Origin: an uncultured Bacteroidia bacterium
GTDB taxonomy: Bacteria > Bacteroidota > Bacteroidia > Bacteroidales > UBA932
DNA length: 57,494 bases
Direction of reading: 5' to 3'
NCBI GenBank assembly: GCA_902784435.1
Contig: CACZUR010000014.1
Location: forward strand, 1 to 57,494
The notes beneath the pieces were generated by a model, which was given only the letters and a program-made list of their open reading frames with translations, made no database searches and was not told the DNA's origin. The position numbers and the translations under genes are program-made. How positions within the stretch are numbered: the first letter of the stretch is position 1; each line of letters opens with the position of its first letter. This document shows, in pieces, positions 25,706 to 49,452 of this stretch.

Positions 25706-27934
25706 TTACTGCACCGCAAACGCTACGGGGCTTCCTTCCTGGCTGCTGCCGGCCACCCACAACTGGAAGTCGCCGGGTTCCACTTTCCGCTTGCCGTCCA
25801 GGCCTGTGAAGGAGAGTTCCGACACGGGGAGCTGCACGGTGAGCTGCCGGCTTTCGCCAGGAAGAAGGCTCACGCGCAGGAAGGCTTTCAGTTCCTTCAC
25901 CGGACGGGTAATGGACCCTACCAGGTCGCGGACATACACCTGGGCCACCTCGGTGCCCTCGCAGGTGCCGGTGTTGGCCAGGGTGAAGGTTACCTGGATG
26001 GTGTCATCGGCCCCATAGACCTTCTTGTCCAGGCCGATGCCGGAATAGGCGAAGGTCGTGTAACTGAGGCCGAAACCGAAGGGGAAGAGCGGATAGGCAC
26101 CGTAGTCCAGGTAGTAGCTGGTGTTGCCCAGGGAAGTCTGCCCGGCTTCCAGCGGAATATCTTCCAGCAGCGTTTCGCCGTTGTAGGGACGGCCGGTCAT
26201 GTGGTGGCTGTAATACATCGGAGCCTGCCCCACGGTGCGCAGGAAGGTGACGGGGGTTTTGCCGGAAGGATTCACCTCGCCGGCGAGGATGCGAGCCAGG
26301 GCCGGGCCGCCCATCGTTCCGGGATGGAAGGCGTACAGCAGGGCATCCACGTTGGGCAGGTCGCGCTCGATGGTGAGCGGCCGGCCGGCCATGACGATGG
26401 CCACTACAGGCTTGCCGGTGGCCTTCAGTGCGGCCAGCAGGGCGCTTTGGGAGCCGACCAGGTTCAGATCGGCCAGGGAGTGGGCTTCTCCGGAGAGGAT
26501 GGCCTCTTCGCCCAGGAACGCGAGCACGATGTCAGCCCTCCGGGCAGCCGCCGTCACATCGGCGAAGTTATCGCGCTTTTCGCGGCTGTAGCGCAGGCCG
26601 GGAACATAGTCCACGCGGCCGGGGAACCGGGCCCGCAGCGCCTGCAGCGGGGTGACGGTATGCTCTTTCTGCCCGTCGAAGGCCCAGGTGCCCAGCTGGT
26701 CGTGCGGGGCATCGGCCAGGGGGCCCGTTACCAGGATGCGGCCACCCTTCAGGGGCAGCACGCCGTCGTTTTTAAGCAGGATCACCGACTCCTCCACGCT
26801 CTTTTGGGCCGATGCCAGGTGTTCCGGCGCATACTGCACCGCCCTGGCAGCCTCCACATCCACGTAGGGATGCTCGAACAGGCCCAGGAGCATTTTCACG
26901 CGCAGGATGTTGCGCACGGCCTTGTCGATGGTCTTTTCCTTCACGGCTCCGCCCTTCACCAGCTCTTCCAGATGCGACAGGAAGCCGTAGGTCATCATGT
27001 CCATGTCCACGCCGGCGTTGGCGGCCTTTTCGGCCACGTCCTTGCGGTCCGTACCAAAACCATGGTTGATCATTTCGCCCATGGAATTCCAGTCCGTGAC
27101 TACCAGGCCGTCGAAGCCCCATTCCCCGCGGAGGATATCCTTCACTACGAAGGTGTTGCCCGTGGAAGGCACGCCGTCGTTGTCATTGAAAGAGGTCATG
27201 AGCGTGAGGGCGCCGGCCTTCACGGCCGCCTCGAACGGCGGCAGATAGATGTTGCGCAGCTGCCGTTCCGTGAGGAAGGTGCTGTTATAGTCCCGGCCAC
27301 CTTCGGCTGCGCCATATCCCACGAAATGCTTGATGCATGCCGCCATGGAAGTGCTGTCCAGGCTTGCGCCCTGGTAGCCGCGCACCATGGCTTCGCCCAT
27401 CCGGGCGTCCAGATAAGTGTCTTCGCCACTCCCTTCCGCCATCCGTCCCCAGCGGGGATCGCGGGCGATGTCCAGCATGGGCGAGAACGTCCAGCGGACC
27501 CCCTGCGCCGTGGCTTCCAGGGCAGCCACGCGCGCACCTTCTTCCACCAGGGCGGGGTCGAAAGTGGCCGCCAGGCCCAGCGGAATGGGGAATACGGTGT
27601 GGAAGCCGTGGATGACGTCGCGGCCCACCAGGAGCGGAATGCCCAGGCGCGACTCCTCGACGGCGATGCGCTGAAACTCATTGATCTTGGCGGGATCCAC
27701 CTCGTTCAGGATGGAGCCGATCTGCCCCTTTCGCAGGGCATCGGCATAATTGGACACCTCGCCGCCGGCGCTTACCTGGTTCATCTGGCCGATTTTCTCC
27801 TGCAGCGTCATCTGGCCCAGCAGCTTGTCCACGCGGGCCTCCACTTCGGGAGACGAGCCCACGGTAGTGCCTGCCTGCCGGGAGCAGGCAAGCACTGCCA
27901 TCAGACTCAGTAAAAGGAGTTTAGTACACTTCAT
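25706..27934 (-). CDS. GH3 beta-glucosidase lipoprotein
   Basis: The 742 residues start with a lipoprotein signal (lipid on C17 in LMAVLAC), then the GH3 TIM barrel with the nucleophile D281 in LVVTDWNSMGEM, the KHFVGYGA motif, the alpha/beta sandwich and a fibronectin-III-like C-terminal domain. It matches the BglX-type architecture. It should remove terminal glucose from beta-linked oligosaccharides released by the neighbouring GH16 enzyme. It lies 4 nt after the GH16 stop in the same operon. Being lipid-anchored, it could face the periplasm or the cell surface. Confidence 0.92.
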   Translation of the reverse strand: MKCTKLLLLSLMAVLACSRQAGTTVGSSPEVEARVDKLLGQMTLQEKIGQMNQVSAGGEVSNYADALRKGQIGSILNEVDPAKINEFQRIAVEESRLGIPLLVGRDVIHGFHTVFPIPLGLAATFDPALVEEGARVAALEATAQGVRWTFSPMLDIARDPRWGRMAEGSGEDTYLDARMGEAMVRGYQGASLDSTSMAACIKHFVGYGAAEGGRDYNSTFLTERQLRNIYLPPFEAAVKAGALTLMTSFNDNDGVPSTGNTFVVKDILRGEWGFDGLVVTDWNSMGEMINHGFGTDRKDVAEKAANAGVDMDMMTYGFLSHLEELVKGGAVKEKTIDKAVRNILRVKMLLGLFEHPYVDVEAARAVQYAPEHLASAQKSVEESVILLKNDGVLPLKGGRILVTGPLADAPHDQLGTWAFDGQKEHTVTPLQALRARFPGRVDYVPGLRYSREKRDNFADVTAAARRADIVLAFLGEEAILSGEAHSLADLNLVGSQSALLAALKATGKPVVAIVMAGRPLTIERDLPNVDALLYAFHPGTMGGPALARILAGEVNPSGKTPVTFLRTVGQAPMYYSHHMTGRPYNGETLLEDIPLEAGQTSLGNTSYYLDYGAYPLFPFGFGLSYTTFAYSGIGLDKKVYGADDTIQVTFTLANTGTCEGTEVAQVYVRDLVGSITRPVKELKAFLRVSLLPGESRQLTVQLPVSELSFTGLDGKRKVEPGDFQLWVAGSSQEGSPVAFAVQ

Positions 27935-27938
27935 GCGT

Positions 27939-29039
27939 TTAGTTTTTCTGGAATACGCGGACGTAGTCTACCAGCATGGTCACGGGAAGGGCGCTTTCAT
28001 CCACACCTGTCTGGCCTCCCCAGTCTCCGCCCCAAGCCAGGTTCAAGATAACATAGAAAGGAGCGTCATAGGGCCAGTCGTCATGTCCCAGCCCGCGGTT
28101 GTCGTAAGAGAGCTGCACCTTGCCGTCCACGAACGTGGTGATGTTCTCATGGGTCCACTCGATGGCGTACACATGGAAGTCGTCTTCGGCTCCGGCGCAA
28201 TACATCTCGTGGGTCACCTGGGTGCCGTTGGAATGTACATGCGAATTGGCGTGCAGGCTGCTGGACACGTAGTTGGGGTGGTAACCCACCTCTTCCATGA
28301 TGTCTATCTCGCCGCTGTCGGGCCAGCCGGTAAAGTTCACCGGCATCATCCAGAAGGCGGGCCAGGTGCCCTTTCCCTTCGGAAGTTTGATGCGGCCTTC
28401 GATATAGCCATACTGCCAGCCGGTCTTCACCTTGGCATACACGCGGCCGGAATAAATCTTTCCGCCCTCTTTGAAGCAGTGAATCTGCAGGGAGCCGTCT
28501 TTCACCTCGGTCACCAGACCGCCGTTCGGGGAGGTATGGTTCACATAGGTCTGCAGCTCGTTGTTCACCCAGTGGTCGCCCTTCACTTCGTGGGTCCAGT
28601 CGCTGCTCTTGAGCTCGGACCCTTCATTGAATTCGTCCCGCCAGACCAGGTTGTAACCATCGGGAATGTCGATATCCACCTCTCCGCCGGCCTGCGTAAG
28701 CGTCACTTTCTCGCGCGTGGAACCGCACTTGATGGTGATGAAAGTCTCGCGGTCGCGGTAGGTGTCGTTTTTCTTCACCTTCACGGCAACCTGGGCCGAT
28801 GCCTGGGCACTGTACGCAGGTTCTACGCTCACCCAGTTCACGCCGTCGGCCGGAAACACCTGGAAGGCGTCGGAGGCCTTCACGTCCAGCGTGAGCGTCT
28901 GCTCATTCTGGTCGCAGGACAGGGTGGCAGGGGTTACCGTAATGGTCTCCGTCTTGCCGGGAGCATCCTTCTCCCCACCCCCGCCGCAGGCGCAGGCGAG
29001 GGTAAGGAAAAGAACGGGGATCAAATGAATCGCACGCAT
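27939..29039 (-). CDS. GH16 endo-beta-glucanase lipoprotein with BACON domain
   Basis: The 366 residues start with a lipoprotein signal with Cys at 16 and 18. A BACON-like beta domain spans about 33-117 (VTPATLSCDQNEQTLTLDV). The GH16 jelly roll runs from 129 (LVWRDEFNEG) to the end. The catalytic motif GEIDIMEEVG (243-252) has nucleophile E244 and acid/base E249 in the ExDxxE arrangement of laminarinases and lichenases. It should cut beta-1,3 or mixed beta-1,3/1,4-glucan at the cell surface, feeding SusC. It belongs to the operon between the binding lipoprotein and the GH3 gene. Confidence 0.93.
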   Translation of the reverse strand: MRAIHLIPVLFLTLACACGGGGEKDAPGKTETITVTPATLSCDQNEQTLTLDVKASDAFQVFPADGVNWVSVEPAYSAQASAQVAVKVKKNDTYRDRETFITIKCGSTREKVTLTQAGGEVDIDIPDGYNLVWRDEFNEGSELKSSDWTHEVKGDHWVNNELQTYVNHTSPNGGLVTEVKDGSLQIHCFKEGGKIYSGRVYAKVKTGWQYGYIEGRIKLPKGKGTWPAFWMMPVNFTGWPDSGEIDIMEEVGYHPNYVSSSLHANSHVHSNGTQVTHEMYCAGAEDDFHVYAIEWTHENITTFVDGKVQLSYDNRGLGHDDWPYDAPFYVILNLAWGGDWGGQTGVDESALPVTMLVDYVRVFQKN

Positions 29040-31910: not shown

Positions 31911-33446
31911 TCAATAGTTGTTCTGGGTGAGTTCGTTAGCCTTGCCGGCGGTAGAGTCGATCAGGCCCTGCGGGAAGGGCAGGTACTTCTTGGAAGCAGA
32001 CCAGGTGTTGGTACGGTAACCGTATGTGTCGGGAACCAGCACGGTGGGAGCGTCACCCCAGCGGATGAGGTCCCAATAGCGTTTGCCTTCACCCACGAAT
32101 TCGAGTTTGCGCTCTTCCTTGATGTTCTCCAGCGAGAGGGAGACGGTGGCGCCGCCGAGGGCGCGGCCGTGCACGTCGTTCAGCCACTGGGCGGCATCAC
32201 CGGAACCGGCGCCGCGCACCACCAGTTCGGCGGCGTTCAGCAGGGTTTCGGAATAGCGGTAGATGCGCAGGTTGTTGTTGAAGTTCAGGTTCACGTCACC
32301 CTGGGTGCCTACATTGTCCATGTAGCCGATATACTTCTGCTGGAAGATGCCGGTATCCTGGTAACGGGGGGTGTATTCCTCCCGGGTGGGATCGGTGACA
32401 TAGCACGTTGCGGCGCGACGGGCATCGGCGGCGTCGAACATGTCGTAGGTTTCCTGGCGCACCGGGCAGAAGCCCCAGCCGTCGTTCCAGAGGAGGTCGG
32501 CCTGGGCGATGCTGCCCTTGGACTTCCAGGACTGCGGAGTGATCAGGGTAGGCAGCACGGTGCCGCCGGCACCCCGGACCCAACCCCAGCTGCGCTCGCC
32601 GGAGACGTTGCGGAAATTGATCTCGAAGATGGACTCGACGCCCCATTCTCCGGTTTCCTTAAAGATATCGCCGTAGTTGGGCATGAGGTCATACTCGCCC
32701 GAGCCGATGATTTCCTTCATGTAATCCAGTGCCTTGCCAAAGCGGCTTTCGTCGTTCTGGTACAGGACAGCCTCGGCATAGAGCATATAGGCCATGGCCT
32801 GGGAAACACGGCCGTAGTTGGCGGCGTCCCACTTCATGGGAAGGACCTTCATGTCGATGGCCCCTTCCAGGTCGGTGATCATGCCATCATACACTTCGTC
32901 GGCCTTTTTCTGCGGAGAAGTGAAGTCGCCGGTGAGGTTCTCCTCATAGTAAGGGATGTTGCCCCAGAACTTCCAGAGGATGCAGTAGTAGTAGTCGCGC
33001 AGGACGCGGGCCTGGGCCTCGGTGCTCTTGGCCACGGCATCCGGCAGGTCGGGCGTCCACTTGATATAGGCGATGACATCGTTGCAGCGTTTCACACCGG
33101 AGAAGGCGTCGGACAGGATGCCGGACATGCAGTTGGTGGGAACGGCTTCATAGTTCATCATCAGGTGCCAGTAGGCGTTGTCCGTCTTGTCCTGACCGCC
33201 CACCCAAATCTGGTCGGCCATGATATCGGACATCATGTTCAGGGGATTGTACTGGTCTGCGCACCAGTCGAACCACTGGAGCGGATCGTAGGCGGCCACC
33301 AGGGCTTCGGACAGATGCTTCTCCGTGGTGAAATACTCTTCCAGCTGCATGGCGCCGGTATTATCCACCGTCAGGAACTTGGAGGTGCAAGAAGAGGCAA
33401 ACGCGAGCGCTGCGACGGCAGCGAGAATGGTGATATGTTTTTTCAT
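31911..33446 (-). CDS. susD: SusD/RagB-family nutrient-binding lipoprotein
   Basis: SusD proteins form the lid on the SusC transporter and bind glycan outside the cell. The 511 residues have a lipoprotein signal (AALAFASSC), the TPR-like helical core (AQARVLRDYYYCILWKFWGNIPY), and the C-terminal signature LRIYRYSETLLNAAELVVRG...IKEERKLEFVGEGKRYWDLIRWG. It lies 16 nt behind susC and 2 nt ahead of the binding lipoprotein, so it is translationally linked to both. Confidence 0.96.
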   Translation of the reverse strand: MKKHITILAAVAALAFASSCTSKFLTVDNTGAMQLEEYFTTEKHLSEALVAAYDPLQWFDWCADQYNPLNMMSDIMADQIWVGGQDKTDNAYWHLMMNYEAVPTNCMSGILSDAFSGVKRCNDVIAYIKWTPDLPDAVAKSTEAQARVLRDYYYCILWKFWGNIPYYEENLTGDFTSPQKKADEVYDGMITDLEGAIDMKVLPMKWDAANYGRVSQAMAYMLYAEAVLYQNDESRFGKALDYMKEIIGSGEYDLMPNYGDIFKETGEWGVESIFEINFRNVSGERSWGWVRGAGGTVLPTLITPQSWKSKGSIAQADLLWNDGWGFCPVRQETYDMFDAADARRAATCYVTDPTREEYTPRYQDTGIFQQKYIGYMDNVGTQGDVNLNFNNNLRIYRYSETLLNAAELVVRGAGSGDAAQWLNDVHGRALGGATVSLSLENIKEERKLEFVGEGKRYWDLIRWGDAPTVLVPDTYGYRTNTWSASKKYLPFPQGLIDSTAGKANELTQNNY

Positions 33447-33462: not shown

Positions 33463-36400
33463 TTATTTAACGATACAGACAGCCACGCGGTTGCTTTCCG
33501 GACCCTGGGAGGCGTCGCGGTCCACGGAGGCGTTGAAGGAGATACGGCTGGCCTCGATGCCGGCCTTCTTGAGCATATCCACCACAGTCTGGGCACGCTG
33601 CTCAGAAAGGGCCTTGTTGATGCTGGCGTTGCCGGTTGCGCTGTCGGCATAGCCGGTAACCGTGATCCTGGCATCCGGGTTCTCTTTCAGGATCTGGGCA
33701 ATCTGACCCAGCTTGAAAGCCTCTTCCGGACGGATTTCGGCCTTGCCGATCACAAAGTACAGGTCGTCGGTGTAGGATCCAGTCAGCTTGGCGGGAACTT
33801 CCTTGATTACCTCTACGGGAACTTCCTTGACCACTTCCTTGATCACTTCTTTCTCCACGATCTTCTCGACCACCTTTTCAGGTACGTAAGGATCTACATG
33901 GACGGGAGCGGCTGCACCGGCCTTGCTGGGACGGCCGCCCAGTTTCACCTGGACGCCGGCCAGGAGGGTACGGGCCTGCGGATACACGCCGTAGTCGATA
34001 CCCAGGGAGGTGCCGCCGGAGGAGATTTCCGGGTCGAAGCCTCTGTAGTTGGTGAGGGTGAGCAGGTTCTCGGCCGCCACATACACGCGGAGGGAATTGA
34101 TGAGGATGGCCTTGGTCCACTTCTCCGGCAGGGTGTAACCCAGCTGGATGTTCTTCAGGCGCAGGTAGCTGCCGTCCTGGACATACAGGTCGGAGAACTG
34201 CCAGTTCACATTGTCACCGCGGACAAAGCGGGGCAGCGTGTTGGAAGTGCCTTCACCGGTCCAGCGGCCCAGCATATAGGCCGGCATGTTGGTGTCGGGG
34301 ATATCCGTACGGCGGGTAAGGTCGGCGATGGAGTTGCCGTAAGTACCCTGCCACAGCATATAGAAGTCCAGGCCCTTGTAGGAGGCGGAGAAGTTCAGGC
34401 CGCCCGACCATGCAGGCATGCCGTTGCCGATGTAAGTACGGTCGCTGTCATTCCAGACACCGTCTCCGTTCACATCCACGAAGCGGACGTCGCCGGGAAC
34501 GGCACCGGGGATGATCTTTGCCCCGCTGGCGTTCACATAAGCGTCAACCTCTGCCTGGTTCTGGAAAATACCGTTGGTCTTGTAACCATAGAAGAACGGG
34601 AAAGGATAGCCATTCTCACCGCGGGTGACGGTGCCGGCGCCCTGGAAGGAGTCGTAGTTGTTGAAACCGCTCTCATTGCCCATGGAAACGAGCCGGTTGT
34701 GCAGGTAGGTGGCGTTGCCGCCCACGCGGAAGTTCCAGTCGCCGCGGCCGAACTTGTAGGAGATTTCCATTTCCACACCCTGGTTCACCATGTAACCGGT
34801 GTTGCCCCAAGGGCTGGATTCACCCACATAGGAAGGAGTGGGCATCTGGAGCAGCATGCCGTCGGTGGCCTTGTGATAGTAGTCGGCCGTGAACGTGAGG
34901 GCATTGCCGAAGAAGCCCAGGTCGATACCGGCATCCGTCTGGATGGAACGCTCCCAGTGGAGGGAAGGGTTCGCGAGGCCGCTGGACTTCACACCTTCCA
35001 CGGTGGTTTCACCGGCGCCGAAGATGTAGTTGTTGCTGCGGGAAGTAAGGGTGGTGTAACGGAAGGCCTCGAAGGCATCGGAACCGTTCACACCCCAGGA
35101 GAGACGGAGCTTGGCGTTGGACAGCCAGCTGGGAATGTTCAGATAAGGCTCGTTGTGGATGTTCCAACCCACGGATACGGACGGGAAGTTACCCCATTTG
35201 CTGTTGGCACCGAAGCGGGAGGAACCGTCCCGGCGGAAGGTTACCTGGATCATGTAACGCTCGTCGTAGTTGTAATCGGCACGGGCAAAGTAGGATGCCA
35301 GGCGGTAGGGGCTGCTCACCCAGCCGTTGGCGTGCTGCTTGTCGGGGTCGTTCACGTTGTTGGGGGCATTGCCGATGTAAGGCTTGCCGAACCATTCCGG
35401 AGCAATGTCCAGGCGGTCGGCGTAAATGCCGTCGCTGCTGTTCTCCAGGGCACTCTGACCCAGGAGGACGGAGAAGCTGTGCTTGCCGATTTCCTTATTA
35501 TAGGTCAGGTAGTTTTCCAGCTGCCAGACCAGGCCCTTTTCGTACTGGGCGTTGACAATAGTGTTGACCCGGCGGTTGTTGCCGCTCAGATAGAAGGTGG
35601 GCGTATAACCGCTGTTGCCCCAGAAGCTCATGTCCACGCTCAGGGAGCTGTGGAACTTGAGGTTGTCCCAGATCTGGAGTTCGCCGGAAAGGGCGGCCAC
35701 CAGTTTGTGGCTCCAGTTGTTATTGGCGGGCAGGCTCATGGCGGCGATGGGGTTCACCATCTCGTGGAAGTCGGCGCCCGGCACCATGAACAGCTGGCCG
35801 TTTTTACCGGAGAGCAGGTCCAGGCCCGCATAATCTACCGCGTAGGCAGCCGCCTGCTCGGGAGTGGCATAGACACCCAGGATGGGAGCCAGTGAAAGGG
35901 CCGATCCCAGCGGGGAGCCCCACTGCGAGTTCTCGTCGACGCCCTTGCTGCTGATATTGGCATAGGACAGCTGGTTGGTGAGCACGAAGCTGTTCAGGAA
36001 ATTGCGCTCGTCCTTGTGGTCCCACAGGGTGAACTGCGTATTGGAACGCAGGGTGAGACGGCGGTAGTTGGAACGGCCGAAATTACCGCCCACGATACCT
36101 TCCTGATCCGTATAACCGGCAGACACATAGTAATTTACCGCGTCGGATGCACCGCTCACGGACAGTTCGTGGGTCTGCTGGGGAGCATTGGGATTGAACA
36201 CTTCCTTCTGCCAGTCGGTACCCTGACCGTAAGAGAACGGATCGGCATACTTGGGAGCCATGCCGGCATTGATGAGACCTTCGTTCACCATGAGGGCATA
36301 CTCGCTGGCATTGAGCACGGTACGGTGTTTCCAGGGGTTGGAAATACCATAGGCGAAGTTATAGTCAATCTTGGCGGAACCCTTGGCGCCCTTCTTGGTG

Positions 36401-37065
36401 GTTACCAGCACCACGCCGTTGGCGGCGCGGGTACCGTAAACGGCACCGGAGGCGGCATCCTTGAGCACTTCGATGGATTCGATATCATTGGGATTCAGAT
36501 AATCGATACCCCCGGAGATGGGCATGCCGTCCACTATATAAATAGGGTCGGAGGAGTTGATGGAACCCACACCACGGACACGGATACGGGAACTGGCGCC
36601 CGGCTGACCGGAAGCGGAAGTAACGGTAACACCGGCGGTGAGGCCCTTGAGGGCGGCATCCACGCGGGTAGGAGCCGTTACACCCAGCGCTTCGGCGTCC
36701 ACCTTGGCAATGGCCGCGGTGACCACCGATTTTTTCTGTACACCGTAGCCGATGACCACGGTTTCTTCCAACATCTGCGTGTCGTCCGGAAGGACGACCA
36801 CCAGGTTCTGCTGGCCGTTGTTGGAAATCACCTGCGTTGCATATCCGATGCAGGAAATCTCCACGGATGCACCTTTCGGGGTGGAAAGCGCAAAAGCGCC
36901 GTCCACGTCCGTCATGGCACCGTTATTGGTTCCCTGCTGGACAACAAACGCTCCGATAATGGGTTCGCCGGCGGCATCCTGAACGGTACCCCGCAGGGTA
37001 ACATTCTGCGCCAGGGCCGACAAAGCCAATCCTGCGAAGAGGATCAGAGTTGCGATTTTTTTCAT
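33463..37065 (-). CDS. susC: SusC/RagA TonB-dependent transporter fused to an OmpA domain
   Basis: The 1200-residue protein has, in order: a signal peptide (MKKIATLILFAGLALSALAQ); a carboxypeptidase-regulatory-like domain (22-100, RGTVQDAAGEPIIGAFV); a TonB-interacting segment (LEETVVIGYGVQKK); the plug (SSRIRVRGVGSINSSDPIYIV); and the 22-stranded barrel ending near residue 1042 (YPQARTLLAGVQVKLG). Ordinary SusC stops there at about 1000-1050 residues. Here a charged linker (about 1060-1090, repeats of EKVVEK and KEV) leads to an OmpA-like domain (about 1098-1200) with the peptidoglycan-contact residues D1141 (GYADS) and R1193 (SNRVAV). The C-terminus of the last strand faces the periplasm, so this domain can reach the cell wall. 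The longer upstream frame starts before the signal peptide and is rejected. Confidence 0.94.
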   Translation of the reverse strand: MKKIATLILFAGLALSALAQNVTLRGTVQDAAGEPIIGAFVVQQGTNNGAMTDVDGAFALSTPKGASVEISCIGYATQVISNNGQQNLVVVLPDDTQMLEETVVIGYGVQKKSVVTAAIAKVDAEALGVTAPTRVDAALKGLTAGVTVTSASGQPGASSRIRVRGVGSINSSDPIYIVDGMPISGGIDYLNPNDIESIEVLKDAASGAVYGTRAANGVVLVTTKKGAKGSAKIDYNFAYGISNPWKHRTVLNASEYALMVNEGLINAGMAPKYADPFSYGQGTDWQKEVFNPNAPQQTHELSVSGASDAVNYYVSAGYTDQEGIVGGNFGRSNYRRLTLRSNTQFTLWDHKDERNFLNSFVLTNQLSYANISSKGVDENSQWGSPLGSALSLAPILGVYATPEQAAAYAVDYAGLDLLSGKNGQLFMVPGADFHEMVNPIAAMSLPANNNWSHKLVAALSGELQIWDNLKFHSSLSVDMSFWGNSGYTPTFYLSGNNRRVNTIVNAQYEKGLVWQLENYLTYNKEIGKHSFSVLLGQSALENSSDGIYADRLDIAPEWFGKPYIGNAPNNVNDPDKQHANGWVSSPYRLASYFARADYNYDERYMIQVTFRRDGSSRFGANSKWGNFPSVSVGWNIHNEPYLNIPSWLSNAKLRLSWGVNGSDAFEAFRYTTLTSRSNNYIFGAGETTVEGVKSSGLANPSLHWERSIQTDAGIDLGFFGNALTFTADYYHKATDGMLLQMPTPSYVGESSPWGNTGYMVNQGVEMEISYKFGRGDWNFRVGGNATYLHNRLVSMGNESGFNNYDSFQGAGTVTRGENGYPFPFFYGYKTNGIFQNQAEVDAYVNASGAKIIPGAVPGDVRFVDVNGDGVWNDSDRTYIGNGMPAWSGGLNFSASYKGLDFYMLWQGTYGNSIADLTRRTDIPDTNMPAYMLGRWTGEGTSNTLPRFVRGDNVNWQFSDLYVQDGSYLRLKNIQLGYTLPEKWTKAILINSLRVYVAAENLLTLTNYRGFDPEISSGGTSLGIDYGVYPQARTLLAGVQVKLGGRPSKAGAAAPVHVDPYVPEKVVEKIVEKEVIKEVVKEVPVEVIKEVPAKLTGSYTDDLYFVIGKAEIRPEEAFKLGQIAQILKENPDARITVTGYADSATGNASINKALSEQRAQTVVDMLKKAGIEASRISFNASVDRDASQGPESNRVAVCIVK

Positions 37066-37133
37066 ACGCGTTTGATTTGGTTTGCGTTGGTTATTATAGT
37101 TAATTAAAGTGAGTTGCGACACTGGGTCAGGAG

Positions 37134-37178: not shown

Positions 37179-37278
37179 AAGTAGTGACATAATAAAAATA
37201 ATTGGCTGTGGTTCAGCCAATTAAAATAATTTAAAACACTAAAAAAGTAGTGACGGAATAATCAAAAATCCACTACTT
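37179..37278. promoter_or_regulatory. Candidate operator: repeated AAGTAGTGAC sites upstream of susC
   Basis: AAGTAGTGAC occurs at 37179 and again at 37245 (66 nt apart), each followed two bases later by AATAA, and an inverted CACTACTT lies at 37271-37278 over the regulator's stop codon. The sites lie upstream of the susC promoter and are good candidates for binding of a locus-specific activator. Confidence 0.45.
37199..37222 (-). terminator. Terminator behind the locus regulator
   Basis: A perfect 9-bp stem (AATTGGCTG/CAGCCAATT) with a short loop is followed on the minus strand by ATTTTTATT. It lies about 50 nt after the regulator's stop and separates it from the susC operon. Confidence 0.6.
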
Positions 37279-38904
37279 CCCAATCATTTTTACCCTTTCT
37301 TCGAAATTTTCGCGGTCTTCCAGCGCCGCATTTTTGACGGCCACCTTGTAGTTGTAGATGGTACTCAGGGAGTAGTCCAGCATGGCGGCGATCCGCTTGC
37401 TGTCGTCTACACCCAGGCGGATGAGGGCGAAGATGCGCTGCTCGGTGGTGAGATGTCCGCGGGGCGGGACCTCGCGGGCTTCCTCCTTCAGGAGCGCATT
37501 GAACTGCTCTACGAAATCCGGGTACAGGCCCAGGAAGGTGGCGTCAAAGGTGTCGTAGAACTCGTCCCTCACCTTTTCCGAACGGCCGCTGATGGAAAGC
37601 TCCTTGAGCAGTTGGTCCGCCTTGCCCTGCTTGAGCAGGTTCCGGAAACGGTTGTCCTCTGCGCGCACAGCCGAAATCTGGGCCGACAAGCCCTGCAGGA
37701 AGCTCAGGATGTACTGTTCCTTCACCTCGTTTTCCTTGGAGATCTGCTGGTTCAGACCGTTCAGGGCCGTATTGGCCTGCGCCAGGGAAAGATTGCTGTC
37801 TTCCAATTCCTTCCGCACGCGGGAGAGTTTGCGGGAGCGCACGATGAGGAAATAGGTCACCTGTGACAGGATAAGGGTGAGGACCGCCAGCAGGATGGAC
37901 CAGACCTTCCGGCTGCGGTTGGCCCGCACCTGTCTGTCCTGATAAGCGTCCTCCACCTGCATCAGGAAACGGGAAATCTGCCAGGGACGCAGCTTGGCAT
38001 TGTAGCGGATGGCATCTTCCTGGGCTATCCGAAGATACGTGAAAGAGTGGTCCACGTCGGTGGGAAGCACCAGCTGGGCCACCATGGTCAGGGAGGCATA
38101 GTCCCGGACGGCATTTACGATGTCGCATTCGGCCGACTTCACCAGCCAGTACAGCCGGTCCGGCTGATCGCCCCGGGCGTTGGCCAGCTCCGACTGGAAG
38201 AAGGCGTGGATGGCAAAGTCGCGCTGTTCCGGCGTGACGCTTCCCACCAGCAGCCGGCTCACGCTGTCGGCCGCCTCCCACTGGCTTTCGTCCATGAGTT
38301 TGTCCCGAAGCAGCGCACGGTAACGGGCCGATTCCCGGGGCAGCATGTCCAGCAGGCGCTGGCGGAAAGAGGCTGCCGGCGGAATGGACAGGCGCTCCAC
38401 CATGCCGGAATTACCGGCCATGTCCTTGGAAAAGTCGTACAGCGTCCAATAATAGTCGGCCTGGAGATGGGCGGGAAGAGAAAGTGTATCGATTTGGTTG
38501 TAAAGCACTTGTGTCGCCTCCAGGTAGTTGCCGGCTTTCTCGTACAGGTGTCCCAGGTCGATGGAGGCCTGCAGATAGCGGTCCCGGTCTCCCAGTTCCA
38601 GCGCCCATTCCTGGCAATGCTTCAGGTAATGCTGTGTGGAGTCGAAGCTGAAGGGAAAGTATTCCGCCGCCGTAAGCATGCCCAGTTCGAAACGGCGGGA
38701 AAGGTCCGGGGTGGCCTGTACCAGCTTGCAGTAAGCCTCCAGCTGGTCTGCCTTTTTGGCCACATGGATTTCCCGCATGGCCAGATAGCTGTCCAACTCT
38801 TCCAGCAGGGCGCGCGTGCGACGGTCCGTCCGGGGCTGCGTGACGCAGGACAACGCTGCCAGCGCCGCCAGACTTACCAACAAGATGTTCTTCCCCCATC
38901 GCAT
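37273..38904 (-). CDS. DUF6377-type membrane regulator of the polysaccharide locus
   Basis: The 543 residues have an N-terminal lipoprotein-like or signal segment (VSLAALAALSC), a helical TPR-like sensor region (30-335), one transmembrane helix (about 345-365, SILLAVLTLILSQVTYFLIV), a coiled coil, and a C-terminal region with a helix-turn-helix (LTTEQRIFALIRLGVDDSKRIAAMLDYSLSTIYNYK). This matches regulators encoded beside Sus-type loci in Bacteroides, thought to sense sugar on the periplasmic side and activate susC on the cytoplasmic side. It is encoded next to susC, facing the same way, with a terminator between. The ATG lies 4 nt after a promoter box. Confidence 0.82.
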   Translation of the reverse strand: MRWGKNILLVSLAALAALSCVTQPRTDRRTRALLEELDSYLAMREIHVAKKADQLEAYCKLVQATPDLSRRFELGMLTAAEYFPFSFDSTQHYLKHCQEWALELGDRDRYLQASIDLGHLYEKAGNYLEATQVLYNQIDTLSLPAHLQADYYWTLYDFSKDMAGNSGMVERLSIPPAASFRQRLLDMLPRESARYRALLRDKLMDESQWEAADSVSRLLVGSVTPEQRDFAIHAFFQSELANARGDQPDRLYWLVKSAECDIVNAVRDYASLTMVAQLVLPTDVDHSFTYLRIAQEDAIRYNAKLRPWQISRFLMQVEDAYQDRQVRANRSRKVWSILLAVLTLILSQVTYFLIVRSRKLSRVRKELEDSNLSLAQANTALNGLNQQISKENEVKEQYILSFLQGLSAQISAVRAEDNRFRNLLKQGKADQLLKELSISGRSEKVRDEFYDTFDATFLGLYPDFVEQFNALLKEEAREVPPRGHLTTEQRIFALIRLGVDDSKRIAAMLDYSLSTIYNYKVAVKNAALEDRENFEERVKMIGK

Positions 38905-43942: not shown

Positions 43943-46900
43943 ATGAAAAAATCATTCTTGCTTCTGCTTCCGGTCCTCCTCTTTGCCGCGGCCGCCTGCC
44001 AGAACCTGGAACCGGCCTCTCCGGAACAGGAAGTGAACCTGCGGACCATCGAGTTCTCCTCTTCCGTAGGCGCCTACACCAAGGCCACGGATACCAGTTT
44101 TGAAGCTGGAGACGTGGTGGGCCTTACCATCGGCCAGCCCGTGAATGCCAGCAATGTGAAACTCACGTATGCCAACGGCAGCTTCACCCCCGAACGTACT
44201 CTTTACTGGGGCCTGGACCAGAAAAACGAGGAAAAATCCTCCTTTGTGGCCTATGCCCCCTATGATGCCGCCACAGATCCTTCCAAGGCCTTCTCCTTTA
44301 CCATCAAGGCCGACCAGAGTGCGGCCGGCGCCTATGCCGCCTCCGACCTCCTGGCCGCCAAGGCCGATGCCGGTCCGGGCGAAAAGACCGTACACCTGGC
44401 TTTCAGCCATGTCCTGTCCCGCCTGGTCCTTACCCTGACCAACACCGTGGAAGGCGATGAGATTGCCGGCGTCACCCTGGGCGGTGTCCAGATTGCCCTC
44501 ACGGCCGACATCCCGAACGGCCGTTATGCCGCCACCGGAGAAACCGCCGTGGTAACACCTGCGAAGAAAGACAACAACTACGTTTTCCTCGTAGCGCCCC
44601 AGACCGTGGCTCCGGAAGTGCTCATTGCCATGAAATCCGGAAAAATCGTCCGCTACACGCCCGACGCAGCCCTGCAGTTCGCCTCCGGCAAGCAGGTTTC
44701 GGCCGCCATTTCCGTGCAGCAGGACGCCGTGTCGTTTGAGGCCGAAGTCCTGGACTGGACCGACGCTACAGCCTTCTTCGGAAAGACCGCCGACAGCGGA
44801 GAGCCCCTGGAAGAATGGGGAATCCTGGGCAATGTGATCGGCAGTGAATGGGTGGAAATCCTGCCCATGACCCTTCAGGAAGACGGTTCCTATCATGCCC
44901 GCATCAGCAGCTGGGCACAGGATTACTCCTATATTAATTTCTATATCCAGAACCTCTTCAAGAACGACGTGCGGGTGGGGCCCGCCCAGCCCGTGAATTA
45001 CACCCTGGTAGACGGAGAACCCACGGAGATTCCCATTTCGTACGGCTACAACATGTTCTATTTCCCGGTGAAGGAAATCCTTGACGTCTATTTCTCCCCC
45101 GCCAAGGGCCTTGTCAAGGTAGTACCCGCGCCCCACGAGTGGAAGAGCATGGGCAGCGGACAATTCATCGACGGCTTCATCACCGACCTTTTCGAACTGC
45201 CGCACGAGGAAATGACCGTAGCCATCGAGGCCGACGGTCTACGCGAAGGAATGTACCGCATTCCCAATCCCTACAAGGAGTGGAACTGGACGCCCTTCTT
45301 CAACTATACCGAAGGCGGTGAACTCGTCATTGACGCTTCCAATCCCGACCGCGTCTATTTTAAAACCACCTTCACCGGCATCGCCGATGACCGCTACGGC
45401 AATTTCTACGCCTGCTCGCTGGTTCCCGAAAACGGCTGGAACAACTACTACTATTACGGCTGGTACTATAATTCTTACAAGTATCTCACCTTTGGCGACT
45501 ATGCCGGTATTATACTGGATCAATACGGCACCTATCGCACCAACGATGAGGGCATGATGAGCGTAACCCTGCCCGAAGGTACCCGTCCCAGCATCTACAC
45601 CGGCATCACCATTTCCATGCAAGGTACGGAGACGGGAACCGACGGTGTCCACTATATGTTGTACAACGTCAAGCCCCAGATGGATGTGAGGACGCTCCGC
45701 TACGGTATCTGGAACGGGACGCTGGCCCGGGAAGACGTGCTGGCCAATTGCCTGCCGCAGGTCCAGAACAACGAAGAGGGAACGGTGGTCATCAGCGATT
45801 TCGAGCCCGACGACGACAATCTCGTCAAGATACCCTTCGACAAGAGCGGTTCCTATACGGTGCTGTTCTACGCAGCAGACGCATCGGGAGACTACTGGAA
45901 CTGGCTATTCGAGCACGTGGGCGTGCTCATCGACGGCGACACCCCTCCCGCCGCGGAGATTTCCATCACCGTACCCGAGAACCAGGGCGCCTATGCCGAC
46001 AGTGAGATCACTTTCCATATCGACATGCCCTCTCCCGGAAGCCTTGCCTATGTAGTCCTTCCCTCCTATGAGTTCTGGAATTCCGGACTTACGGAAGACA
46101 GCATTTACGACTATGTGATGTCCAACGGCACTTATGCCAACCTGTACTATTTCAACGACACCAGAGGTGCCGACTACGTGGTGTCCGGCCTGTCCCCCGA
46201 AACGGAATACGTGATCCTGGCCGCCGGTGAAAACCAGTTCGAAATCAGCACCTGGGCCATGGCTTTTGCCGTTACCGCGAAATCCCCCGAATTCTCCTAT
46301 CTGGGAACCGGCCGCTACAATGACTTTACCTGGATGTTCGAAGGTGAATTCCGGAACCCGGTGGACGTCTTCGTCGCAAAGAGTACCCAGCCGGTCCGCT
46401 ACCGGGTCATGTACCCTTACCGGAATTACTGGTCGGCCCGTTACGACAAGCCGGAAATCATGGAAAACTACACCTGGAACGATGCCGAATTCTTTGACTT
46501 CTATCTGGACGGCGAGAACTTCGTGTACACCTCCTTCTACAACGGCTATCAGGCCTATTACAGTAATAGTGACCCGCGTCCCATCATCCTCCAGCATTAC
46601 GCCCAGGACAACAACCGCGTCATCGCCGAAGGGGTCTACAACCTGAGCCCCTGGGCCGCCCTGGAGGGCACCAACATGGGTTATAACTTCCGCAATTTAT
46701 GGGAATCCATCTTCCTGGAAATGCCCGGCGTAGAGTATACACCCGAATGGATGGGCTCCAATGGTGCGCCCAAACGCTCCCTGAAGAGCCAGGGCAGACC
46801 TTCTCCTCTCGTACCGGACGGTCCCGAGCGCCTGACCCTGCAGAAGGTAAAGCCTTTTACCCATCACCTGGTAAAGACCGGAAAACCCGTGGTTATCCCT

Positions 46901-46954
46901 GCCCAGAAGGCGACTCCCGCCCTCGGCTCCACCGAAGAAAAACTTGCTAAGTAA
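43943..46954 (+). CDS. Large fimbrillin-family surface lipoprotein
   Basis: The 1003 residues have a lipoprotein signal (LLPVLLFAAAAC). A fimbrillin-like N-terminal domain spans about 30-270 (TKATDTSFEAGDVVGLTIG, TVHLAFSHVLSRLVLTLTN), resembling FimA/Mfa-type subunits of Bacteroidales fimbriae. A long beta-rich extension follows, dense in Tyr/Asn/Trp with several Ig-like modules (PPAAEISITVPENQGAYADSE), and a basic Pro-rich tail. Most fimbrillins are only 300-450 residues, so this is a giant adhesin-like version. The next gene encodes a shorter relative and starts within a few nt. A role in adhesion or glycan capture is inferred. Confidence 0.78.
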   Translation: MKKSFLLLLPVLLFAAAACQNLEPASPEQEVNLRTIEFSSSVGAYTKATDTSFEAGDVVGLTIGQPVNASNVKLTYANGSFTPERTLYWGLDQKNEEKSSFVAYAPYDAATDPSKAFSFTIKADQSAAGAYAASDLLAAKADAGPGEKTVHLAFSHVLSRLVLTLTNTVEGDEIAGVTLGGVQIALTADIPNGRYAATGETAVVTPAKKDNNYVFLVAPQTVAPEVLIAMKSGKIVRYTPDAALQFASGKQVSAAISVQQDAVSFEAEVLDWTDATAFFGKTADSGEPLEEWGILGNVIGSEWVEILPMTLQEDGSYHARISSWAQDYSYINFYIQNLFKNDVRVGPAQPVNYTLVDGEPTEIPISYGYNMFYFPVKEILDVYFSPAKGLVKVVPAPHEWKSMGSGQFIDGFITDLFELPHEEMTVAIEADGLREGMYRIPNPYKEWNWTPFFNYTEGGELVIDASNPDRVYFKTTFTGIADDRYGNFYACSLVPENGWNNYYYYGWYYNSYKYLTFGDYAGIILDQYGTYRTNDEGMMSVTLPEGTRPSIYTGITISMQGTETGTDGVHYMLYNVKPQMDVRTLRYGIWNGTLAREDVLANCLPQVQNNEEGTVVISDFEPDDDNLVKIPFDKSGSYTVLFYAADASGDYWNWLFEHVGVLIDGDTPPAAEISITVPENQGAYADSEITFHIDMPSPGSLAYVVLPSYEFWNSGLTEDSIYDYVMSNGTYANLYYFNDTRGADYVVSGLSPETEYVILAAGENQFEISTWAMAFAVTAKSPEFSYLGTGRYNDFTWMFEGEFRNPVDVFVAKSTQPVRYRVMYPYRNYWSARYDKPEIMENYTWNDAEFFDFYLDGENFVYTSFYNGYQAYYSNSDPRPIILQHYAQDNNRVIAEGVYNLSPWAALEGTNMGYNFRNLWESIFLEMPGVEYTPEWMGSNGAPKRSLKSQGRPSPLVPDGPERLTLQKVKPFTHHLVKTGKPVVIPAQKATPALGSTEEKLAK

Positions 46955-46962
46955 TGACCGCC

Positions 46963-49452
46963 ATGAGAAAATATATTTACTATCTGTCACTTGCCCTTGC
47001 CGCTGTCTTTGCACTGGCATCCTGCGCCAAAGAGGAGGATAAAGCCCTGCAGCAGAGGGAAATCAAGTTCTCGGCCTCCCTGGGAACCTTCCAGGTCAAG
47101 GCTACCGACACCGCTTTCGAGAAAGGCGACGCCGTGGGTGTATACGCCCTGGGCACCACCACTTTCAGCAATCGGAAACTGGTTTATGACGGCGTTAACC
47201 TTACGGCCGAAACCCCCGTATACTGGAGTTCGTACCAGCAGGTGAACGAAGGCAACCTTTTCCGTGCATATTATCCCTATCAGGAAGGGCTCGAGAACGA
47301 AAAAGAGTATTTCTTCACCGTGCAGCCCGACCAGAGCACCCACGCGTCCTACACCGCCTCTGACCTGATGGTGGGCGATGCCTATGCCAGCCCCTCCGAC
47401 GGGACGGTGCACCTGAACTTCGTCCATCAGATGTCCAAGGTGGTCCTTACCATCGACAACCGCCTGGGAAGCGAAATTGCCGACGTCTACTTTGCCGATG
47501 TCTACGGCCGCGTCCAGGTTTACCCGGGCGAGGGACTCGGGGCCATCGGCGAACCCGGCACCATCAAGGCCGGAAAAGTGACGCTCACGGACGGTTCCCC
47601 GGCCTGGGCGCTCATCCTCGCCCCCCAGGGATGCAATCCCCGGCTCCTGATTACCACGGTGGACGGCAAGCAGTATACTTATTATTCAGACTACACGGTT
47701 TATTTCAGCAGCGGCCATCGCTACGGCGTGCGCATCGTCCTGGACGAAACCTCCATTTCCACCGATTTCACCTCCGACGTTCTGGACTGGGTGGACGATT
47801 CCGATATCCAGTTCGGGCAGATGACACCCCAGCCGCAGAATGGCAGCTGGGCTGTCATCGGCAGCATCATGGGAACGGGATGGGATACCGATTTCTGGAT
47901 GGAGAGATGCTATTCCGAATACAACTGCTATTACGGTCTCATTTACTACCAGGAAGGCGACGAGTTCAAACTCCGCTGTAACGGAGACTGGAGCATCAAT
48001 GTGGGCGTGGACGACTACATCGGCACCGGCGGCCACATCGCGGTTCCGAATGGTCCCAACATCCAGCTCGGCGAAACGGGTCTGTACGAACTGTTCTTCT
48101 ATGCCGATGAGAACTATCTGTACATCGCTCCCGCGGGAACGGAGAAGACGTGGGGTGTCATAGGCACCATCGAAGGAACCGGCTGGGATACGGACTTCCC
48201 CATGACCTTTGCCCACAACGGCGATGCCCCTTGCTTCTTTACCAACATCACCTATCACGCAGGGGAGAGTTTCAAACTCCGCTTCCAGGGCAACTGGTAT
48301 CTGAATTACGGCCTGGCCAACTGGAACTGGGGTGACGCCATCCCCAGTGGCAAATGGTTCCTGATGGAGCGGGACGGTGCCGATATCCTGCTCGAAGAAG
48401 GAGACGGCTCCTATCAGGTCATCTTCGACTGGAACCTCCGCGCTGTGTCCATTTACCGTTTCGGCGACATCAGCCAGGAAATCGTAGCAAATAATGTCGG
48501 AGAGGTCCTGAACGGTCCGGACAATAACGTCTATACCGTCACCGGAGGCATTACCCAAATTGCCAATACGTCCTATGGCAATTATTATATTGCCGACGAG
48601 ACCGGCGAACTGTATATCTACGGAACGGTCAACGAAGAAGGGATGTATCCCAAAGCCTTGGACGGCGGCTGGTACTCCCCGGCATTCGGGCTGGTACCGG
48701 GCGATGTGGTAACGGTGAAAGGCCCCAAAACCACCTATAACGGGGTTGCGGAACTGGTGGACGTACAACTGCTGGACGTACAGAAAGTCCCGCTGGGCGC
48801 CCTCTACAACCAGATTTCGGTCAGTTCCGCCCAGGACGTCGTCTCGTTTGAAATAAGGTCCACCCAGGGTGAACCCTCGTTCAGCAGCGACGCAGACTGG
48901 ATTTCGATTTCCACGGAAGGGTTCGCAGAAAACTGGTACAGGGTCATTGTTTCCGTGAATGAGAATTCCTCGACGGAAGAACGCGCCGCCACCCTCATCG
49001 CCGAGAGCGCGGGATCCATCCTGAACCTTTATATCTACCAGCTTGGCGCAACCGCCCCCGGCGAAGCCGGAAGCCTTGAGAATCCCTTCGACATCGCATC
49101 GGCCATCGCTTTCATCGACAACGGCGGCACCGGGGAGGTTTACGTGAAAGGCATCGTGACCCGGATCCTGTACACCTTCAGCGCCGATTACGGCACCGGC
49201 ACCTTCTGGATTTCGGACAACGGGGAGTGCTATGGCGTAGCCGACGACAACAAGAGCACCACGGCACCGGACAAAGACTTCGAATGCTACAGCGTCTATT
49301 GGCTGGGCAACCGGAACTGGGCCGACGGCGACCGGCAGATCGAGATCGGCGACGAAGTCATCGTCTGCGGCCAGCTCACCAAGTACAGGAACACCTACGA
49401 AACCGCCAGCAAAAAGGCGTACGTATACAGTGTCAACGGAAACACCGAATAA
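46963..49452 (+). CDS. Modular fimbrillin-type lipoprotein with SusE-like and OB-like domains
   Basis: The 829 residues comprise a lipoprotein signal (AAVFALASC) and a fimbrillin-like domain (20-275, VKATDTAFEKGDAVGVYALG). Two SusE/SusF-like binding modules of about 100 residues follow, each opening with GSWAVIGSIMGTGWDTDF or WGVIGTIEGTGWDTDF. Then come an OB-fold-like domain (VTGGITQIANTSYGNYYIAD), a BACON-like domain and a second OB-like domain at the end (YVKGIVTRILYTFSADYGTG). The mix of fimbrial and starch-binding modules suggests a surface protein that binds polysaccharide. An ATG at 46954 overlaps the previous stop (TAATG) and would add three residues. A terminator follows. Confidence 0.78.
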   Translation: MRKYIYYLSLALAAVFALASCAKEEDKALQQREIKFSASLGTFQVKATDTAFEKGDAVGVYALGTTTFSNRKLVYDGVNLTAETPVYWSSYQQVNEGNLFRAYYPYQEGLENEKEYFFTVQPDQSTHASYTASDLMVGDAYASPSDGTVHLNFVHQMSKVVLTIDNRLGSEIADVYFADVYGRVQVYPGEGLGAIGEPGTIKAGKVTLTDGSPAWALILAPQGCNPRLLITTVDGKQYTYYSDYTVYFSSGHRYGVRIVLDETSISTDFTSDVLDWVDDSDIQFGQMTPQPQNGSWAVIGSIMGTGWDTDFWMERCYSEYNCYYGLIYYQEGDEFKLRCNGDWSINVGVDDYIGTGGHIAVPNGPNIQLGETGLYELFFYADENYLYIAPAGTEKTWGVIGTIEGTGWDTDFPMTFAHNGDAPCFFTNITYHAGESFKLRFQGNWYLNYGLANWNWGDAIPSGKWFLMERDGADILLEEGDGSYQVIFDWNLRAVSIYRFGDISQEIVANNVGEVLNGPDNNVYTVTGGITQIANTSYGNYYIADETGELYIYGTVNEEGMYPKALDGGWYSPAFGLVPGDVVTVKGPKTTYNGVAELVDVQLLDVQKVPLGALYNQISVSSAQDVVSFEIRSTQGEPSFSSDADWISISTEGFAENWYRVIVSVNENSSTEERAATLIAESAGSILNLYIYQLGATAPGEAGSLENPFDIASAIAFIDNGGTGEVYVKGIVTRILYTFSADYGTGTFWISDNGECYGVADDNKSTTAPDKDFECYSVYWLGNRNWADGDRQIEIGDEVIVCGQLTKYRNTYETASKKAYVYSVNGNTE

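Follow-up and report, generated by a model that had tools for sequence, protein, structure and literature searches.

A probable exchangeable peptidoglycan-anchor cassette at the C-terminus of SusC importers of uncultured Bacteroidales

The window analyzed here is a 57,494-nt stretch of contig CACZUR010000014.1 (assembly GCA_902784435.1) from an uncultured Bacteroidia bacterium of the order Bacteroidales. It carries a gene in which a SusC-type outer membrane importer continues into an OmpA-like domain. We confirm this fusion and find it to be larger than first described: it represents a multi-copy, exchangeable tail that is clade-specific as far as sampled. In all likelihood, the tail is a recurrently grafted, exchangeable peptidoglycan-anchor cassette on diverse SusCD importers, and would consist of a flexible V/E/K linker and an OmpA-like domain added at the SusC C-terminus. 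That it binds the wall in the cell, and benefits the cell by doing so, we infer from sequence.

The fused protein and its predicted wall contact

The open frame (33463-37122, reverse strand) encodes 1219 residues if the GTG at 37122 is used; the ATG at 37065-37063, with a signal-peptide-like stretch directly after it, is more likely to be the start. The family model TIGR04056 (OMP_RagA_SusC) matches residues 42-1061 at about 875 bits (cut-off 368.25), covering positions 2-981 of its 981, and on the same frame residues 1122-1202 are recognized by PF00691 (OmpA), which scores 59.3 bits (E 5e-16) over a gathering score of 27.2. Assignment to SusC is based on this full-length match, the adjoining SusD-family gene and a plug and barrel fold; assignment to the OmpA domains on a PF00691 score above gathering and the presence of the diaminopimelate-contact Asp and Arg. 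A sequence-only reading of the window had proposed that SusC continues in a single frame into an OmpA domain, with an extra segment following a complete barrel; its coordinates for that segment agree with those of the tail cassette in Table 1, and the structural model likewise ends the barrel before the tail. Among solved structures, 9uu2_A ('Major outer membrane protein') is nearest in sequence to the tail (E 3.2e-18). The linker DNA contains a 24-nt repeat in three copies, and no inverted repeats were found between positions 33300 and 34100 of the window.

AlphaFold2, run on the window protein and 59 fused relatives, gave a mean predicted local distance difference test score (pLDDT) of 77.9 and a predicted template modeling score (pTM) of 0.71. 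The last barrel strand comprises mature residues 1011-1023, block 1011-1020 having a pLDDT of 92 and the next block 56. The linker (1026-1071) remains below 50 throughout, with the blocks covering 1031-1070 at 25-33. Mature residues 1080-1179 are modeled as strand-helix-strand-helix-strand-strand; blocks 1081-1160 score 82-92, apart from one at 67, and the final 20 residues 59-60. The top Foldseek matches are the SusCs of the dextran and levan utilisomes and RagA, the best being 8aa4_A (dextran utilisome SusC, E 2.3e-76). In the model, the barrel looks intact, its end so placed that an OmpA domain could extend from it into the periplasm, and the tail is supported as a separately folded OmpA domain.

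In Acinetobacter baumannii OmpA, the pair D271/R286 contacts diaminopimelate, according to the accessible text of PMC6572160. The sequence-only reading had rightly named D1141, the Asp of the GYAD motif, as the peptidoglycan-contact Asp of the window protein, but the Arg that it paired with it, R1193, is that of SNRV. The canonical partner by motif is R1157 of LSEQRA, which by our reading of the motif would correspond to A. baumannii R286. The contact Asp, both Args (LSEQRA and SNRV) and the two Asn, the Thr and the Gly of these motifs are invariant in 84/84 tails. Moreover, the ratio of nonsynonymous to synonymous substitution rates (dN/dS) in the tail ranges from 0.05 to 0.25 in 10 pairs, supporting purifying selection on the tails.

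The C-terminus of a TonB-dependent barrel faces the periplasm, so the OmpA domain, given such a linker, would be able to extend to the wall and bind diaminopimelate. The OmpA domain, on its flexible strap, would fasten each tailed SusC to the wall as in two-domain OmpA, and these sequence features make it probable that every tailed transporter is wall-bound. Each SusCD unit would then serve at the same time as a tether between outer membrane and wall, and would be held back from diffusing away or leaving in vesicles. Bracing of the transporter against the TonB pulling force is speculation.

Tailed SusCs lie beside different enzymes. The window gene adjoins GH16 and GH3 enzymes, while ten neighbors scanned at the five other tailed loci of the same genome include two alpha-L-fucosidases, a uronate isomerase, a phosphodiester glycosidase domain and others. 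Tail function is therefore not tied to one glycan or to glucan uptake. Accordingly, the earlier picture of a single odd protein of a glucan system is not upheld, the tail being a multi-copy cassette beside varied enzymes. Such diversity of carriers also suits the notion that a wall tether benefits the envelope rather than transport, SusC being merely an abundant outer membrane carrier in a phylum reportedly without Tol-Pal, a possibility that we regard as real yet rather doubtful. The same notion gains from a survey cited in the accessible text of PMC12204202, in which pal genes were not detected in Bacteroidetes and PorE was proposed as a tether, and from OmpM of the Negativicutes, which couples tethering with nutrient uptake (PMC10628300, accessible text). 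On the other hand, all eight fused genomes scored retain standalone OmpA-family genes, and related species without tails were found. Finally, SusC-SusD operons are as a rule substrate-induced, which makes them a poor choice for a housekeeping tether.

Linkers measure 51-89 aa (median 57, n=84) and consist of 21% V, 14% E, 14% K and 12% A; 80 of the 84 are of the V/E/K type by motif count. Across 78 linkers, the V/E/K stretch shows strong hydrophobic periodicity, with a repeat length near 4.2 residues. SusCD forms dimers, and this periodicity, together with a coiled-coil-like second linker type (see below), could speak for an OmpA domain that does not bind the wall but pairs the halves of SusC2D2, docks TonB/ExbD or aids assembly; RmpM, an OmpA-domain protein, is reported to associate with the BAM complex in the accessible text of PMC2797634. 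We consider such a role unlikely, given that the wall-contact residues kept in every tail are not demanded by pairing alone and that the linker is without structure in the model.

Distribution and exchange of the tail

The window's own genome, a 2.23-Mb metagenome-assembled genome (MAG) that is 82.6% complete, holds 17 SusCs over the family cut-off, six of them tailed. A search of the genus, probably the one named Cryptobacteroides in GTDB, yielded no fewer than 115 tail matches that score 141 bits or more, from at least 43 of 400 genomes. Of these matches, 110 are in frames of at least 1081 aa (41 genomes); the other five have frames of 319, 338, 435, 683 and 930 aa. The weaker matches listed (≤137 bits) lie in frames of 129-411 aa; SusC identity was confirmed for the rows that were fetched. 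Fifteen of the fusions recovered by the tail profile, A1, had themselves gone into building it. Searches with the last 300 aa of the protein covered 393 order-level genomes and 395 from the phylum (own genome included in both; the two sets share some genomes) and listed about 150 matches each, sorted by score; among the matches listed, none combined barrel and tail outside the own genome. Up to 10 candidates per genome were scored in the genus search and up to five in the order and phylum searches; the fusion counts are therefore minima, and the absence outside the genus holds provisionally.

In eight genomes, tailed copies in SusC-sized frames were counted relative to SusCs (E ≤ 1e-80, or the family cut-off for G000; up to 40 candidates per genome), giving 6/17 (G000), 5/24 (G389), 3/39 (G418), 3/36 (G255), 9/36 (G179), 3/40 (G172), 2/33 (G396) and 2/17 (G333). 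One of the five tailed genes of G389 (L206) reaches only 97 bits to A1, and two of the nine of G179 (L186, L187) look like copies of one gene. Replacement of standalone OmpA by the fusions is not supported, as standalone genes are still present in the genomes scored. As a separate observation, the own genome carries three tandem OmpA-family genes (L007/L008; C7:64442-67403) with frames of 407-416 aa.

A scan of contigs, overlapping in genomes with the genus searches (e.g., G179 and JAFUWZ contigs) and hence not an independent sample, kept the best 80 of 303 relatives. All 80 loci are titled Bacteroidales or Bacteroidia; 39 titles name a ruminant animal and the rest no animal. An open reading frame of at least 250 aa starts close behind the fusion in 72 of them; 72 such downstream proteins were scanned (the window SusD and 71 of those 72), and their matches fall into the overlapping sets SusD-like_3 (45), SusD-like_2 (45), SusD_RagB (43) and SusD-like (21), with the lipobox Cys as sole invariant column. 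NrdD was chosen to relate the genomes, since RpoB gave no match in the window's MAG. In NrdD, tailed genomes with a match (33/43) are 80-95% identical to the window's genome, and untailed genomes with a match (21/37, not a random draw) are interspersed from 91% downward, with one partial match at 94%.

Searched with the barrel alone, the genus gave full-length relatives that are 77-79% identical to the window SusC; they come from seven genomes, and all have frames of 1042-1056 aa. Twenty-nine nearest relatives (54-79%) were fetched, and 28 end at the terminal strand (e.g., GVNLKF-stop), L172 being tailed. At the DNA level, identity between the window and untailed L153 and L157 averages about 79-81% in the last kb of the barrel and about 73% in susD, and nothing aligns across most of 33463-33939; the insert amounts to 474 coding nt, in frame. 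Absence of the fusion from close relatives, envisaged beforehand as a reason to doubt it, therefore applies to 28 of 29 nearest orthologues, but five paralogues in the same genome and many other genomes are tailed. L172 is the same gene as L073 by sequence. The L073 tail is the closest of 45 to that of the window (77%), and both share a short sequence after the stop; this post-stop motif was rejected as a general part of the cassette, being present in 1/79 loci only.

Pairwise identity within the own genome's set of six tailed SusCs is 48-71% in the tails and 18-30% in the barrels (43% in one pair); L047, a tailed barrel, shares 45% identity with two untailed barrels. Over 3010 pairs with barrels below 35% identity, tail identity averages 61.0%, with a maximum of 87.5%; the tail exceeds the best equal-length barrel window in 2733 of these pairs, and 31 tail pairs but zero barrel windows attain at least 80%. 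Tails that are 83-88% identical are found on barrels that are 23-33% identical. Homogenization of tails within genomes was not seen, as unlike-barrel pairs from the same genome average 60.2% (n=91) vs. 61.0% between genomes (n=2919). In a comparison of two trees, the barrel tree stemming from a fast search, forcing the tail data on the barrel tree costs 938 log units (approximately unbiased [AU] test, p-AU 9e-7) and the reverse costs 21725.

Identity at the DNA level was also followed in 60-column windows along five unlike-barrel pairs, picked for having the most alike tails. It stays mostly within 30-57% in the barrel, takes intermediate values as the linker begins, lies mostly at 77-98% across the cassette and drops to at most 60% past the stop, with a step at the edges in 5/5 pairs. 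Silent divergence (dS) is mismatched in both directions: L138/L141 have a barrel dS of 0.144 and a tail dS of 0.050, whereas the MAG loci L104/L118 have a barrel dS of 0.095 and a tail dS of 0.617, making the latter pair a candidate for recent tail replacement. To us, this pattern points to recombination having acted repeatedly at the gene's 3' end, by which the tail is apparently an exchangeable DNA cassette. Recombination would put closely related tails behind unrelated SusC barrels, in frame and directly ahead of the susD gene, a domain exchange that stays within the final few hundred bases of genes that have diverged strongly.

A single ancient tailed SusC, from which most lineages lost a tail that evolves more slowly than the barrel, would be the alternative history. 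On a FastTree barrel tree with many long branches, 147 distinct SusCs (84 tailed, 63 untailed) show 17 changes of state, tailed rows being over-represented (71 of 157 tree rows, counted before removal of 10 identical ones, were fetched by tail). Tailed SusCs cluster on this tree, as such an origin would have it, with 18 changes under the initial labels vs. a mean of 48 for shuffled labels (17 after relabeling of L138 and L141). The likeness of the window and L073, both in the tail and after the stop, is also in keeping with it. Yet in an orthologue control of 246 between-genome pairs with barrels of at least 60% identity, tails average 72% and barrels 79%, so that tails do not evolve more slowly. 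The closely similar tails on unlike barrels, the identity steps at the cassette edges and the disagreement between tail and barrel dS in L104/L118 argue in the same direction, and tblastn revealed no decayed tail behind the 63 untailed genes. Altogether, we deem one ancient fusion very unlikely. One stub was seen in the own genome: L045 (C2:101902-105081), an untailed SusC near tailed relatives, extends past the last strand by GSAPKK, a possible trace of tail loss that could count as a remnant of such a fusion.

Two further linker types were encountered. The second is Ala-rich and coiled-coil-like, with Cys, and occurs in L188-L190 and in L069-L071 (G012) with similar tails; G179 holds both first and second types. 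A separate origin for it is not supported: its OmpA domains group with those of the first type (support 84/82). The third is the EKAAAEK-type linker of L206 (G389:C13), the OmpA domain of which tentatively falls with standalone OmpAs (AU p 0.124, four standalone rows); L206 is perhaps an independent fusion.

Several points weigh against a recurrently grafted, exchangeable wall anchor. The 17 changes on the barrel tree do not separate gain from loss, and one older gain followed by later losses would also account for the likeness between L073 and the window. Tailed members exist in the window's own barrel clade, namely L172 (64%), G094 (68-71%, in a split frame) and the more distant G297 (49%). 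Tailed SusCs are a minority in each of the eight genomes counted, and the fusions whose record titles were examined all come from MAGs or uncultured genomes. Lastly, as the linker is unstructured in the model, its reach and stiffness are not fixed by it.

An assembly or frame error joining a separate ompA gene to susC, for which one might cite the origin of the titled records and two loci (L089, L093) whose frame is shortened away from a contig end, is ruled out for all practical purposes by recurrence across many assemblies and projects, since the tail lies in a frame of at least 1083 aa in 74/80 loci (near-copies and several loci per genome included), four of the other six run off the contig, and Plug and OmpA are both present in 40/40 fused proteins scanned (the window and 39 relatives). 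The frame being open as well, the frameshift that the sequence-only reading had named as able to split off the OmpA part as its own gene fails as a refutation.

The exchangeable-anchor reading can be taken one step further. We propose, quite tentatively, that recombination swaps tails on and off SusCs and so switches nutrient systems between a free and a wall-anchored state, and that tailed SusCs jointly tether the outer membrane.

Organization of the locus

The features of the fusion gene and its surroundings are listed in Table 1. The 955-aa protein encoded behind the SusD partner has no Pfam or NCBIfam match at E ≤ 0.001. It contains three near-identical repeats (ETWFSPADWSGGLDPQASFEGGVL...) and is probably an unrecognized surface glycan-binding protein with a repeated binding module. 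Further along the window (43943-49449, forward strand), two large fimbrillin-like proteins (PF13149) of 1003 and 832 aa are encoded head to tail.

Table 1. Coordinates of the SusC-OmpA fusion gene, its parts and neighboring genes in the window.
Feature	Position	Strand	Remarks
SusC-OmpA fusion gene	33463..37065	-	1200 aa from ATG at 37065-37063
SusC part	33940..36999	-	CarboxypepD_reg-like (PF13715), TonB plug (PF07715), beta-barrel complete to terminal strand
Linker, about 60 aa	33760..33939	-	V/E/K repeats EKVVEKIVEKEVIKEVVKEVPVEVIKEV; unstructured in model
OmpA-like peptidoglycan-binding domain	33517..33759	-	PF00691; fold runs on to stop at 33463
Contact Asp codon	33643..33645	-	GYAD motif; D1160 in GTG numbering, D1141 in ATG numbering
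Canonical contact Arg codon	33595..33597	-	LSEQR; R1176 in GTG numbering, R1157 in ATG numbering
Tail cassette	33463..33939	-	474 coding nt and stop; missing at colinear orthologous locus of other species
SusD partner	31911..33446	-	PF07980, PF14322; 16 nt past fusion-gene stop
Putative surface glycan-binding protein, 955 aa	29047..31914	-	by position and translation; three near-identical C-terminal repeats
GH16 beta-glucanase-like protein with BACON domain	27939..29039	-	PF00722, PF13004
GH3 beta-glucosidase-like enzyme	25706..27934	-	PF00933, PF01915
SusR-like regulator (DUF6377), upstream	37273..38904	-	PF19904; NF058541 at 391 bits, under cut-off of 480

Comparison with known systems

How the outer membrane is fixed to the wall in Bacteroidota is an open question; in its accessible text, the 2025 report that proposed PorE (PMC12204202) states that similar systems remain to be revealed. 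Self-anchored SusC importers are a candidate. Moreover, the same SusC-SusD locus with and without a tail provides natural pairs (about 80% DNA identity at the barrel end, 73% in susD), by which the benefit of bracing or immobilizing a TonB-pulled transporter becomes directly testable. No description of SusC joined to an OmpA domain was found in the open PMC literature, a search over abstract openings that left subscription journals mostly outside and in part matched 'susc' as a word beginning.

With the SusC/RagA proteins (TIGR04056; dextran and levan utilisomes), the window protein shares the full model match, the fold and the neighboring susD gene, but the family model stops at the last barrel strand whereas the window protein has about 158 more residues. 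These resemble the two-domain OmpA porins of the same genus (frames of 360-411 aa), in which an N-terminal part is likewise followed by a linker and an OmpA domain. Of these porins, the four best matches share about 43-45% identity with the tail and, like it, end in NRV(A/T)xCxVK or NRVAxCxVK; in contrast to the SusC barrel and V/E/K linker of the window protein, they have what we infer to be a small N-terminal barrel and a Pro/Ala-rich linker.

Looking beyond these two families, OmpM/SlpA of Terrabacteria likewise unites nutrient uptake and wall tethering in one protein, according to the accessible text of PMC10628300. That protein is a trimeric porin with an N-terminal SLH domain and a coiled-coil stalk, whereas the window protein is a TonB-dependent importer with a C-terminal OmpA domain and has no SLH family among its Pfam or NCBIfam matches at E ≤ 0.001. 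PorE, according to the accessible text of PMC12204202 a Bacteroidetes protein with a carboxypeptidase-like and a Pal/OmpA domain, is in part similar to it, but is a lipoprotein of other domains; the PorE model NF052230 matches the window protein through the OmpA part only, at 46.1 bits against a cut-off of 600. RmpM/PIII of Neisseria is an OmpA-domain protein beside barrel proteins, in PorA/PorB complexes (PMC4226279, accessible text), but it is a separate protein while the OmpA domain of the window gene is covalently joined to its barrel. A tailed SusC is two known kinds of protein joined in a new way.

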